Source: Affinundibacterium seohonense
GTDB lineage: Bacteria > Pseudomonadota > Gammaproteobacteria > Burkholderiales > Burkholderiaceae_D
Direction: 5' to 3'
Assembly (NCBI RefSeq): GCF_014284305.1
Contig: NZ_JACOFW010000002.1
Location: 124,001 to 188,000 of the forward strand
Length of the DNA stretch: 64,000 nucleotides
Below the pieces are notes generated by a model. It ran no database searches, had not been told where the DNA came from, and saw nothing but the letters and a program-made list of their open reading frames with translations. Position numbers and translations under genes: made by a program. Below, piece by piece: positions 7,116 through 47,604 of the stretch. Within the stretch, counting starts at the first letter, position 1, and every line of letters starts with the position of its first letter.

Positions 7116-7131
7116 TGTGATAAACATCACA
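7116..7131. promoter_or_regulatory. CRP-type operator upstream of gmd
   Basis: The sequence reads TGTGA-TAAACA-TCACA, an exact match to the CRP consensus TGTGA-N6-TCACA. It lies about 105 bases before the gmd start. A possible -10 hexamer, TATAGA, is at 7166-7171. With it the site centre would be near -55 to -61, closer to a class I than a class II position. The binding protein is inferred; the Crp-family regulator at 20591-21295 has a compatible recognition helix. Confidence 0.65.
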
Positions 7132-7144
7132 GATTCTGTACATG

Positions 7145-7162
7145 CATCATGAAACCATGATG
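7145..7162. repeat. Inverted repeat in the gmd leader
   Basis: CATCATG and CATGATG are separated by AAAC, giving a perfect 7-base inverted repeat between the CRP-type site and the possible -10 element of gmd. It could be a second operator or a small hairpin. No binding protein can be named. Confidence 0.4.
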
Positions 7163-7220
7163 ATCTATAGAATGAATTTAGTTAAATGTCAACATTCGTT
7201 TCCGCTGAAAGTTTTTTGCA

Positions 7221-8258
7221 ATGAATAAGAAAGCATTAGTCACTGGTATTACTGGACAAGATGGCGCCTACCTGGCTCAGCTCTTGCTCGAAAAAGGGTA
7301 TACCGTTTATGGAACCTATCGTCGCACCAGTTCAGTGAACTTTTGGCGCATTGAAGAATTAGGAATTGAAAACCATCCACAGCTGCATTTAGTGGAATAT
7401 GATCTGACAGATTTATCTTCTAGTATACGTTTGATTCAGTCTACTGAAGTGACCGAAGTTTACAATCTGGCAGCGCAAAGTTTTGTTGGCGTCTCCTTTG
7501 AACAGCCCGTTACGACGACAGAAATCACCGGCTTGGGTGCGCTTAATCTGTTAGAAGCGATTCGCGTTGTTAACCCTAAAATTCGTTTTTACCAAGCATC
7601 GACTTCTGAAATGTTTGGTAAAGTTCAAGCGGTTCCTCAAGTCGAATCAACGCCGTTTTATCCTCGCAGTCCGTATGGCGTCGCTAAGTTGTATGCGCAT
7701 TGGATGACCATCAACTACCGCGAGTCTTATGGCATTTTTGCTTGTAGTGGTATCTTGTTTAATCATGAATCGCCATTGCGTGGACGTGAGTTTGTGACGC
7801 GTAAAATTACCGATTCGGTCGCGAAGATTAAGCTCGGTAAGCTCGATTGCCTTGAACTAGGCAATATGGATGCCAAACGTGACTGGGGTTTTGCCAAAGA
7901 ATACGTGGAAGGCATGTGGCGTATGCTGCAGGCGGAGATTCCGGACACGTTTGTGTTAGCGACGAATCGTACGGAAACGGTACGTGACTTTGTAACGATG
8001 GCATTTAAGGCAGCCGATATCCATTTGGAATGGGAAGGTTCTGCTGAAAATGAAATCGCCCGTTGCAGTGTGTCGAAGAAGATTGTTGTAAAAGTGAATC
8101 CTAAATTCTATCGTCCGGCTGAAGTCGAATTGCTGATTGGTAATCCGCAAAAAGCCAAGGACGTATTGGGTTGGGAGCCGACTACTACTTTAGAACAGCT
8201 TTGCCAGATGATGGTGGAAGCAGATATACAGCGGAATACGCATGGACATTCTTTCTAA
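7221..8258 (+). CDS. gmd: GDP-mannose 4,6-dehydratase
   Basis: Gmd converts GDP-D-mannose to GDP-4-keto-6-deoxy-D-mannose, the branch point for GDP-D-rhamnose, GDP-L-fucose and related sugars. The product is 345 residues, the normal family length. The N-terminal Rossmann motif [13 protein letters not shown] is at about residues 8-20, followed by the NADP-type signature YGTYRRTSS. The catalytic STSEMFG segment and YxxxK (Tyr152, Lys156 in SPYGVAK) are intact, as is the typical [10 protein letters not shown] segment. It overlaps rmd by 17 bases, so the two are translationally coupled. The manC product encoded at 13713-15167 supplies its substrate. A perfect CRP-type site lies upstream. Confidence 0.95.
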
Positions 8259-9234
8259 ACATGCGCGTCCCCGCGCGCTGATTACAGGCTTACGCGGTTT
8301 TACCGGTGAGTATTTGGCGCGCGAGTTGAACGCCTGTGGCTACGAAGTTTTTGGAACCGCTTACGGTAACGAGGCTTTAGGACAAGGCGTCTATTATGTG
8401 GATATGTGTGATCCACTGGCGCTGCAAGAGGTGGTGAATCAGGTTCAGCCAGAGATCGTCGCCCACTTGGCGGCGATTTCGTTTGTGGGTCATGGTAATG
8501 TCGAAGACATTTATCGGATTAACGTCGTTGGCACGCGCAATCTGTTAGAAGCTTTGAGCAAATTGAAAGTGCCACCGCGTGCAGTTTTAGTGGCAAGTAG
8601 CGCGAATATCTACGGTAATTCAAATGCTGGTGTCATCGCCGAAACAGAAATCGCGATGCCCGCTAATGATTACGCGATCAGCAAATTGGCGACCGAGCAT
8701 GTGGCGCGATTATGGATGGACAAGTTGCCGATTTTTATTACCCGACCGTTTAATTACACGGGTGTCGGTCAGGCCGAGAATTTTTTGTTACCGAAAATTG
8801 TTAGTCACTTTAAACGTAAAGCCACGCACATTGAGCTTGGTAATTTAGATGTCGCTCGTGATTTTTCTGACGTGCGTAATATTGCCAAAGCTTATTGTGA
8901 GTTGTTGTTGAAAGCACCGGCTGGGGAGACTTTTAATATCTGTACCGGTAAGGCTTACACCTTGCGTCAAGTGATTCAATTGGTGGAAGAGATCGCTGGT
9001 TATCAGATTGATGTCCAAGTGAATCCTGCTTTTGTCCGCGCCAATGAAGTTCGTGTGTTGGTAGGAGATCCAACTAAGCTACGTAATAGTATCGGTAGCT
9101 TGCCGGAAATCGACTTGCAACAAACTCTCAGATGGATGCTCGCCGATGTGCCTCCAAACTTAGTGCCCGTCGCGACGATCAGTGAGCCTAAGGCGATGAG
9201 TACGCATAAGCCTATCATTGAGGTTGCTGCTTGA
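8242..9234 (+). CDS. rmd: GDP-6-deoxy-D-lyxo-4-hexulose reductase (probable Rmd)
   Basis: This short-chain dehydrogenase of 330 residues probably reduces the Gmd product to GDP-D-rhamnose. The cofactor motif [13 protein letters not shown] is at residues 14-26, the SSANIYGN segment at 119-126 and the catalytic pair Tyr144/Lys148 in NDYAISK. The direct overlap with gmd and the similarity of layout to the P. aeruginosa gmd/rmd pair favour Rmd. A 4-epimerase or fucose-type enzyme cannot be excluded from motifs alone. The last bases overlap the next glycosyltransferase start (TTGA), so gmd, rmd and two glycosyltransferases appear to form one tightly packed operon. Confidence 0.82.
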
Positions 9235-45771: not shown

Positions 45772-45867
45772 TATCTTATAGTTTTTGCATTTCCGTCGTT
45801 TTCGTGACGCTCACCTCGGTGTAGCATCTCTTGATTTGAACAGCTATTTGAAAAAAAGGAAGAACGC

Positions 45868-47406
45868 ATGAGTTCGTGGACACAAGGCTATGTAGCAGAT
45901 ATCGGCTATACCTATGGATATTACTCAGAATTAAGTCCAATTCGGGCGAATCTTGCTTTGCTTTACAAGGGTAATGCACTGCCCCAGCAGGGTACGCATT
46001 GCGAATTGGGATTCGGGCAGGGGATGAGTATCAACATGCATGCCGCTGCTTCTGGCGATTGTTGGTATGGCACTGACTTTAATCCATCGCAGGTGAGTTT
46101 TGCACAAGAATTGGCAGCTGTGTCTGGTGCTGATGTGCATCTGAGCGACGATAGTTTTGCTGAGTTTGCACAAAGAACCGACTTGCCACAATTTGATAGC
46201 ATAGGCTTGCATGGGATTTGGAGTTGGATTAATGATGATAATCGCGCGATCATCGTCGATTTTGTCCGTAGAAAACTCAAGGTCGGCGGGCAACTTTACA
46301 TTAGCTATAACACCCAACCGGGCTGGAGTGCCTTTGCACCTATGCGACATTTGTTAACCCAGCATGCGGACGTGATGGGCGCCAACGGTCAAGGCATTGT
46401 TGGCAAGATCGACGGTGCAATTGATTTTGCTGAGCGTTTGCTCGCGACCAAGCCAGCTTTTTTACTCGCCAATCCACAGGTGGCGCAAAAATTAGAGAGA
46501 ATCAAAGGACAAAATCGTCAATACATCGCTCATGAGTATTTCAATTTAGATTGGGAGCCCATGCATTTTGGCGATATGCATCAATGGTTGTCGCCTGCCA
46601 AGCTTGATTTTGCCTGCTCTGCACATTACAACGAGCACATTGATGAAGTGAATCTGACGACCCAGCAGCAGAATTTTTTAGCTGAAATCGAGGATAAAGT
46701 GTTTCGTGAAAGCACGCGAGATTTCATGACCAATCAACAGTTCCGGCGTGATATTTGGATCAAGGGCGCGCGTCAACTTGGTTCTAGAGATAGGGCTGAG
46801 GCGATTCGTGCGCAGCGAGTCATGCTGACGGTGGCACCAGCGGATGTTAAATATCAACTCAAGGGGAGTCGTGGTAGTTTTAATGTCGGCGATAAGATTT
46901 ATGAGCCTATCGTCAATTATCTGGCCGACTACCGCATCAGGTCGCTTGCTGAGGTTGAACAAGCGGTGGCGGCTCAAGGACTCGATTTATCTTATGTCAT
47001 GAAGGTAGCGTTGGCCTTGATTGGCATGGGGTATTTGTCTCTAGTGCAGAGTGATGAGCGTATGTTGAAGGCGCAACTTGCATGTGAAAAATTAAATACA
47101 CACATATTGCAGCAAGTTCGAGGCAATATCGACTACCGTTATCTGGCGAGTCCGGTAACAGGCGCTGCGATGCTCATTGATCGAGTAGAAATGTTATTTT
47201 TGGCTGCTCGACAGATGCAGTTACATAGCCAAGACGAATGGATAGAATTCGCCTGGAAAGTCTTGGAGTCGAATAAGCAAATCTTGCTTAAAGACGGCAA
47301 AAACTTGGAAACCCGGGAAGAGAATTTGACTGAGTTAGCGGTGTTAGCGATCAAGTTCGCCGCCAATAAGTTACCGGTCTTACAGGCACTCAAAGTCGTG
47401 AAATAA
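45868..47406 (+). CDS. Methyltransferase with regulatory domain (rickettsial PKMT-like)
   Basis: A 512-residue protein. A class I SAM-dependent methyltransferase domain occupies about residues 1-200: the motif I region HCELGFGQGMSINMHAAAS, then YGTDFNPSQVSFA, and IGLHGIWSWINDDNR. A second domain at about 210-300 (AHEYFNLDWEPMHFGDMHQW) fits the predicted methyltransferase regulatory domain seen in rickettsial protein-lysine methyltransferases that modify OmpB. The C-terminal about 200 residues are helical and uncharacterised. An AAGGA ribosome binding site precedes ATG 45868. It sits between a glycosyltransferase and the type I secretion operon, so the giant secreted protein is a natural candidate substrate. 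That is inference; a small-molecule or glycan substrate is possible. Confidence 0.82.
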   Translation: MSSWTQGYVADIGYTYGYYSELSPIRANLALLYKGNALPQQGTHCELGFGQGMSINMHAAASGDCWYGTDFNPSQVSFAQELAAVSGADVHLSDDSFAEFAQRTDLPQFDSIGLHGIWSWINDDNRAIIVDFVRRKLKVGGQLYISYNTQPGWSAFAPMRHLLTQHADVMGANGQGIVGKIDGAIDFAERLLATKPAFLLANPQVAQKLERIKGQNRQYIAHEYFNLDWEPMHFGDMHQWLSPAKLDFACSAHYNEHIDEVNLTTQQQNFLAEIEDKVFRESTRDFMTNQQFRRDIWIKGARQLGSRDRAEAIRAQRVMLTVAPADVKYQLKGSRGSFNVGDKIYEPIVNYLADYRIRSLAEVEQAVAAQGLDLSYVMKVALALIGMGYLSLVQSDERMLKAQLACEKLNTHILQQVRGNIDYRYLASPVTGAAMLIDRVEMLFLAARQMQLHSQDEWIEFAWKVLESNKQILLKDGKNLETREENLTELAVLAIKFAANKLPVLQALKVVK

Positions 47407-47425
47407 GCGGTCGTTCCTGTTTGAA

Positions 47426-47458
47426 AGCGATGGATTGCTTCCTCGGCAATCCATTGCT
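47426..47458 (+). terminator. Hairpin after the methyltransferase gene
   Basis: AGCGATGGATTGC and GCAATCCATTGCT form a 13-base stem with one mismatch and a seven-base loop, 20 bases after the stop codon. No T tract follows, so it may be a weak terminator or a 3'-end stabiliser. Confidence 0.5.
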
Positions 47459-47570
47459 AGTCCCGCACTCACCGCTGCAACTTCCAATTTTCCTCGACAG
47501 AGGACGCATCAAACGCCTAATTTCATCCGGCAGAAAATAAATTGTAGATTTCAAGAAGCAAAGGTAGTAT

Positions 47571-47604
47571 CATTAAAAATGTGATGTACGTCACATTTTT
47601 AATG
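47571..47604. promoter_or_regulatory. Long CRP-type palindrome upstream of the type I secretion operon
   Basis: The core is TGTGA-TGTACG-TCACA (47580-47595), an exact consensus match. The symmetry extends to 34 bases with 14-base perfect arms (CATTAAAAATGTGA on the left), broken only by one central mismatched pair. With GATAAT at 47617-47622 as the -10 element, the predicted start is near 47629. The operator centre then falls at about -41.5, the class II activation position. Confidence 0.72.

Follow-up and report, generated by a model that had tools for sequence, protein, structure and literature searches.

Near-perfect Crp-type sites before surface protein, exporter and gmd genes of Affinundibacterium seohonense and their predicted regulator

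A 64,000-base stretch (the window) of the 4,867,881-base genome of Affinundibacterium seohonense contains three near-perfect Crp-type palindromes, which lie before gmd, before the gene for a giant DUF4214/RTX surface protein, and before a type I secretion (exporter) operon; it also contains the gene for a Crp-family regulator. That one Crp-type regulator would act on the surface protein, exporter, and gmd genes via these sites is strongly supported, because the sites are rare genome-wide, are conserved before the same genes, and keep a fixed class II distance to the promoter. From the sequence comparisons reported here, it seems quite probable that this is a dedicated regulator, presumably loaded with cyclic AMP (cAMP), that binds TGTGAY-N4-RTCACA and acts from class II positions to activate the surface protein gene and the exporter operon.

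The sites were located by pattern scans at 7116-7131 before gmd (TGTGATAAACATCACA), 26751-26766 before the surface protein gene (CGTGATGTACATCACG), and 47580-47595 before the exporter operon (TGTGATGTACGTCACA), none being assigned a strand; all three are present before these genes as a preliminary description of the window had reported. The surface protein site is enclosed in a perfect palindrome of 22 bases (26748-26769), and its terminal bases are C/G, unlike those of TGTGAY-N4-RTCACA, the pattern that defines an exact site here. The 34-base palindrome described around the exporter site (47571-47604) is also there, but 32 of its 34 positions pair, so that it is imperfect.

In the window, exact TGTGA-N6-TCACA occurred twice against 0.15 expected, a count reached by 0 of 100 shuffles, and exact GTGA-N6-TCAC occurred four times against 1.28 expected (4 of 100 shuffles reached four); the fourth of these cores, at 33585-33598 within the giant gene, was taken as chance. 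Mismatched sites were at chance level, with 35 in the window versus 35.4 expected when two mismatches were allowed, and with 31 GTGA-N6-TCAC cores carrying one mismatch versus 25.2 expected, likewise counted as chance level; only near-perfect sites are therefore informative. Genome-wide, where the control was the same pattern reversed, TGTGAY-N4-RTCACA was found twice, both times in the window, and exact TGTGA-N6-TCACA four times, versus three for the control. Of the four occurrences of GTGATNNACRTCAC in the source genome, three are the window sites and the fourth is in a coding frame (L005). Up to three mismatches from TGTGATGTACATCACA, there were 22 places versus 8 for the control, and this genome-wide scan, proposed in the preliminary description, put the three window sites among the four best matches, the fourth lying in a coding frame. 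Equal sites elsewhere, which that description had reckoned as counting against a circuit, amounted to two of the four exact TGTGA-N6-TCACA, the window holding the other two; one is in a coding frame (L001) and one precedes an unrelated-looking gene, discussed below.

The distribution of exact sites across the genus follows that of the regulator. Five Undibacterium genomes have a window-type Crp (83-100% identical), and TGTGAY-N4-RTCACA occurred 2, 2, 3, 2, and 5 times in the source genome, G132, G227, G234, and G176, respectively; 14/14 of these occurrences fall within the gmd-to-tolC locus, including its first promoter. The 15 Undibacterium genomes without a window-type Crp (no match at E 1e-40) together had 7 exact sites versus 7 for the reversed pattern. 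In six genomes with a second-group Crp (43-45% identical) there were 33 exact sites versus 3 for the control, and the same genes, motif, and spacing recurred. Because the two Crp groups share box, targets, and spacing at this degree of divergence, the regulon looks old. The window Crp itself had a match at E 1e-40 in 88 of 294 genomes of the family.

The sites also keep their genes. The site before gmd is present in 5/5 Undibacterium genomes with window-type Crp. The exporter (abcT1) is preceded by a site in 14/14 distinct genomes whose Crp is at least 61% identical. That before the surface protein gene is present in relatives, a site preceding duf4214 in 10/10 fetched loci that have this promoter, as well as in the window. 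Among the 13 named loci with Crp at least 64% identical (L035-L047), a near-perfect palindrome lies ~100 bases before the DUF4214 gene in 10, including L043, whose contig does not extend to the gene itself; L045 starts at crp and is uninformative on this promoter, and the two Glaciimonas loci have two sites before the exporter and no DUF4214 gene that we could see. G294, in which the locus is cut at the contig end, has two sites upstream of its exporter, and a separate site, followed by a -10 box at +22, precedes each of the two DUF4214 genes of G176 (L196, 3084 and 15297). The circuit had been described as local, which proved too narrow: exporter and crp are on different contigs in 5/14 genomes (G115, G173, G027, G060, and G294), the exporter operon of G173 still has a site although 400 kb or more separates it from crp, and more DUF4214-type genes elsewhere have one in genomes with a second-group Crp.

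The spacing between site and -10 box points to the mode of action. Taking as the class II CRP criterion a -10 box 22 bases after a 16-base site, a box of the form NANNNT lies at +22 from the site end in 38/45 promoters, a count based on sequence only, versus 0 to 6/45 at offsets 19-21 and 23-25. The distance from site centre to -12 is 29.5 bases, equivalent to a centre at -41.5 relative to predicted starts. In each of the three classes of promoter, 17 of the surface protein, 19 of the exporter, and 9 of gmd, the best -10 score fell at +22, and the mean score there was 1.77 versus -4.20 (sd 0.50) for a random-offset null, although these statistics are descriptive because orthologous promoters are not independent. 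This is the geometry of class II CRP promoters, so that activation is predicted. In the window, the boxes at this distance are TACTAT at 26788-26793 (+) for the surface protein, with TANNAT in 11/11 first-group promoters, and GATAAT at 47617-47622 (+) for the exporter, with GATAAT or CATAAT in 5/5 first-group and 6/6 second-group Undibacterium genomes; in the second group all six are GATAAT.

Not counted among the 45 were L116 (same genome as L115), the exporter sites of G294 and L210 (the latter from the same genome as L122), the distal of two exporter sites in L113, L119, L120, L122, L228, and L234, and sites without a gene (L232 3444, L237 3273, L242 3177, L239, L246, and L247). Seven fecR promoters of the second group were counted apart; six of them have GATAAT at +21, the exception coming from G054. 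Also left out were five second-group sites (L230, L233, L238, L243, and L244) that precede a DUF4214-type gene and are followed by TAATCT or TAACCT at +22; the products of these genes begin with the same DUF4214-like stretch.

The regulator gene lies at 20591-21295 (-) and encodes cNMP-binding and HTH_Crp_2 domains. Alignment with E. coli CRP showed the same recognition helix residues (R180, E181, and R185), the same cAMP pocket residues (E72, R82, and S83), and the same acidic residues of activating region 3 (54, 55, and 58), which bears out the R-E-x-x-x-R motif and the pocket Glu, Arg, and Ser previously ascribed to this protein. Among the seven cNMP-binding proteins of the genome found by a PF00027 search, it alone has the R-E-x-x-x-R helix; the other six lack the Arg of this motif or lack the helix. 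It did not reach the cut-off of the CRP equivalog NF008732 (71.9 bits versus 266). Before crp, at 21349-21364 (no strand assigned), is a degenerate Crp-type site with two mismatches, about where L039 and L041 have perfect sites, hinting that autoregulation may have been lost or weakened in the source genome.

Several observations weigh against a dedicated, cAMP-loaded activator. Allowing one mismatch gave no excess in the source genome (20 versus 25 for the control), and neither did the looser YGTGAY-N4-RTCACR (4 versus 6); of 18 one-mismatch sites in the source genome, 16 are inside coding frames by a crude longest-frame call, and in neither of the other two does a -10-like box at +22 point at a gene start (in L024 the box, TAAGAT, faces the 3' end of a gene). 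The exact E. coli-type site TGTGAATGACTTCACA (L004; G000:C153:45784-45799), with a weak -10-like box at +22, stands 85 bases before a membrane protein gene that looks unrelated and is CreD-like by eye only; with such a site elsewhere in the genome, the regulon may have a further member. The gmd genes of other genera had no site in 8/8 loci, and gmd also lacks one in 2/6 genomes of the second Crp group. Nor did every exporter promoter show class II spacing: the seven exceptions to the +22 box are all exporter promoters outside Undibacterium, where the site is present but 7/8 promoters have no -10-like box at +22. The -10 matrix, moreover, was a generic one. Finally, the adenine contact T127 of CRP is Ala in the window Crp, T127/S128 aligning with Ala/Ser (a one-residue shift in that helix would give Ser-Ser), and the neighboring cyclase has Val in place of a conserved catalytic Asn, its VNxASR motif reading VVLASR.

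The gmd promoter region has a double arrangement. Just upstream of the site is the -10 box TATACT of an upstream promoter, P_up (7103-7108, +), present in 5/5 Undibacterium gmd promoters with the site, and downstream, at class II distance, is a weak -10-like box, AACCAT, of a promoter P_down (7153-7158, +), which is AANNAT in 5/5 first-group promoters and CATNAT or CAATAT in 4/4 of the second group. The gap between TATACT and the site is 7 bases in the five first-group genomes and 11 bases longer in the second group, where the -10-like box is still at +22; G165 and G209 retain TATACT at gmd although they have no site there. Since the +22 box moves with the site and TATACT is kept without it, the site can be assigned to the downstream box, and it also overlaps the start of an independent promoter. 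Crp binding would shift transcription from P_up to P_down, in the manner of CRP at the E. coli gal promoters.

It is somewhat unlikely, but worth weighing, that the sites are mainly repression operators, or that they work with opposite signs, P_up of gmd being repressed and the surface protein and exporter activated. The position of the gmd site just after a conserved TATACT box that occurs also where no site exists would suit repression, whereas the shift of TATACT relative to site and +22 box in the second Crp group argues against it. Pure repression at gmd was also considered; each of the nine gmd promoters that carry a site retains both the +22 box and TATACT, and the net effect of Crp there may be of either sign. 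The joint switch of surface protein, exporter, and polysaccharide proposed in the preliminary description thus keeps its one-regulator core, on the grounds of rarity, conservation, and spacing, but because the site also lies over the P_up start, switching at gmd may not go in the same direction. Separately, relatives also have the TGACAA-type stretches found at 7020-7080, ahead of the gmd TATACT box, where no -35 box is evident; another regulator may act in this region.

The ligand and its source are the second matter to be weighed. Downstream of a gene for a FecR-domain protein (21518-22990, +; PF04773) and upstream of one for a TPR protein (25061-26545, +; weak TPR matches, with the partner gene kept in relatives) lies the CHASE2 class III nucleotide cyclase gene (23084-25033, +). 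Both domains of the protein were found as claimed (PF05226 and PF00211), but the conserved catalytic Asn is missing. Motif alignment showed ADIRG, DKFIGD, YTALG, and ASR, which retain the two Asp for metal binding, the Lys and Thr for the substrate, and the catalytic Arg. The catalytic Asn stabilizes the transition state. At its position, Val or Ile was found in 12/12 clade genomes that were readable there, the window among them (L042 is outside this count). The window CHASE2 protein may consequently be weak, inactive, or unusual, and may not be the cAMP source, or not the only one. A second class III cyclase encoded in the genome (contig C153, L020) has an intact motif and, judged by eye, a CHASE2-like N-terminal region; were the local cyclase weak or inactive, this one could supply cAMP.

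The absence of the Asn from all readable genomes of the clade, together with the unkept T127, raises the alternative that Crp answers to another nucleotide or to none, its cyclase-like neighbor being a non-catalytic sensor. We consider this unlikely given that E72, R82, and S83 are kept in Crp, that the cyclase keeps its substrate Lys and Thr and both metal Asp, that an intact CHASE2 cyclase is encoded elsewhere in the genome, and that, of 22 more distant relatives, 20 retain the Asn (two have Thr), G054 with a Crp 61% identical being among the Asn bearers. A related and rather improbable scenario is that the clade's CHASE2 receptor has lost cyclase activity and acts as a non-catalytic sensor, for instance through association with the second CHASE2 cyclase or through a bound nucleotide, while Crp turns on the surface layer and exporter and moves gmd between promoters.

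Use of the sites by another DNA-binding protein appears very improbable, as the remaining six cNMP-binding proteins found lack the key Arg or the helix, and exact sites drop to control level in genomes without window-type Crp. Chance palindromes or terminator hairpins, which the chance-level counts of mismatched sites might suggest, are extremely improbable given the conservation of the sites before the same genes at an exact distance to the -10 box; for near-perfect sites a chance origin was rejected on genome-wide rarity, genus contrast, -10 spacing, and shuffles.

In the favored reading of a dedicated, probably cAMP-loaded regulator, the CHASE2, FecR, and TPR proteins would feed a signal into Crp, which, probably with cAMP, would occupy sites centered ~41.5 bases before the start of the surface protein gene and the exporter operon. 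We infer Crp as the binder, cAMP as the ligand, and activation as the effect. Beyond the earlier reading, the analysis adds comparative evidence, class II geometry, the double arrangement at gmd, doubt about the local cyclase, and a wider regulon. What CHASE2 domains sense was called unknown in a 2016 paper (PMC5192318). A CHASE2-FecR-TPR-Crp module tied to three defined promoters with predicted starts offers a direct reporter for its signal, and gives a natural opportunity to ask whether signaling persists in a CHASE2 'cyclase' that lacks the catalytic Asn.

The gmd gene (7221-8258, +) encodes a GDP-mannose 4,6-dehydratase (TIGR01472, 477 bits versus a cut-off of 415). The next gene (8242-9234, +) encodes an rmd-like NAD-dependent epimerase/dehydratase with general Pfam matches only (GDP_Man_Dehyd and Epimerase) and no NCBIfam match at 1e-30, so that of the earlier name gmd-rmd the first half is confirmed and the second is not. 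Together, gmd, manC, and Wzm/Wzt-type genes point to a polymer whose sugar would be of the D-rhamnose or fucose type. The surface protein (26871-34715, +; 2614 residues) has DUF4214 and RTX as the only domains seen (PF13946 and PF00353). About 20 bases upstream of its site, at 26724-26732, is a GTTGTTTTT-like element that is retained in most of 11 otherwise diverged promoters and may be an UP element or an additional binding site. The exporter is a PrtD-type type I secretion system, all subunits being above curated cut-offs: the ABC protein (47724-49577, +; TIGR01842, 788 bits versus 510), the HlyD-type adaptor (49574-50929, +; TIGR01843), and the TolC-type outer membrane protein (50926-52278, +; TIGR01844). 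Between surface protein and exporter are APS kinase and sulfotransferase genes (38694-40153), also kept in G132.

In Caulobacter, the RsaA S-layer locus encodes an RTX surface protein and a dedicated exporter in the vicinity of O-antigen genes, features that the window shares. By analogy, an S-layer anchored on polysaccharide could be envisaged; the Caulobacter RsaA locus is not known to be under Crp control. A literature search found no report joining CHASE2, Crp, and S-layer, none of Undibacterium with an S-layer, and none combining cAMP receptor protein, type I secretion, S-layer, and adenylate cyclase. The half-sites, the recognition residues of the regulator, and the -10 spacing match those of E. 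coli class II CRP promoters, whereas the window Crp is below the equivalog cut-off and has few dedicated targets. At gal, CRP at one site raises P1 and represses P2 (PMC4693257); at gmd, by contrast, the start of P_up lies under the site instead of beside P1.

In Campylobacterota, genes for a CHASE2 cyclase, a phosphodiesterase, and FecR and TPR proteins have been described in clusters, and the CHASE2, FecR, and TPR genes were proposed to form one pathway (PMC9239204). CHASE2 cyclase, FecR, and TPR genes are likewise together in the window, but the Campylobacterota clusters, in the sections consulted, were described without a Crp gene, promoter sites, or target operons. The nearest described system is the Clr-CyaD1-FecR module of Sinorhizobium meliloti, in which the cAMP-dependent Crp-family regulator Clr neighbors the CHASE2 adenylate cyclase CyaD1 and the FecR protein SMc02177, a TPR protein is among the proteins discussed, and Clr targets include surface polysaccharide genes (PMC5498481). 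The window resembles it in having a Crp-family regulator near a CHASE2 cyclase and a FecR protein. It differs in its box, which is TGTGAY-N4-RTCACA rather than the HGTYHC-N4-GRWACA given for Clr in the same source, the G at position 4 of the three sites not fitting Y; in its targets, which have class II spacing and comprise a DUF4214/RTX surface protein, gmd, and a PrtD-type exporter; and in a local cyclase without the catalytic Asn. The kind of system is thus already known, and its box, targets, exact class II wiring, and altered cyclase make this one a variant.

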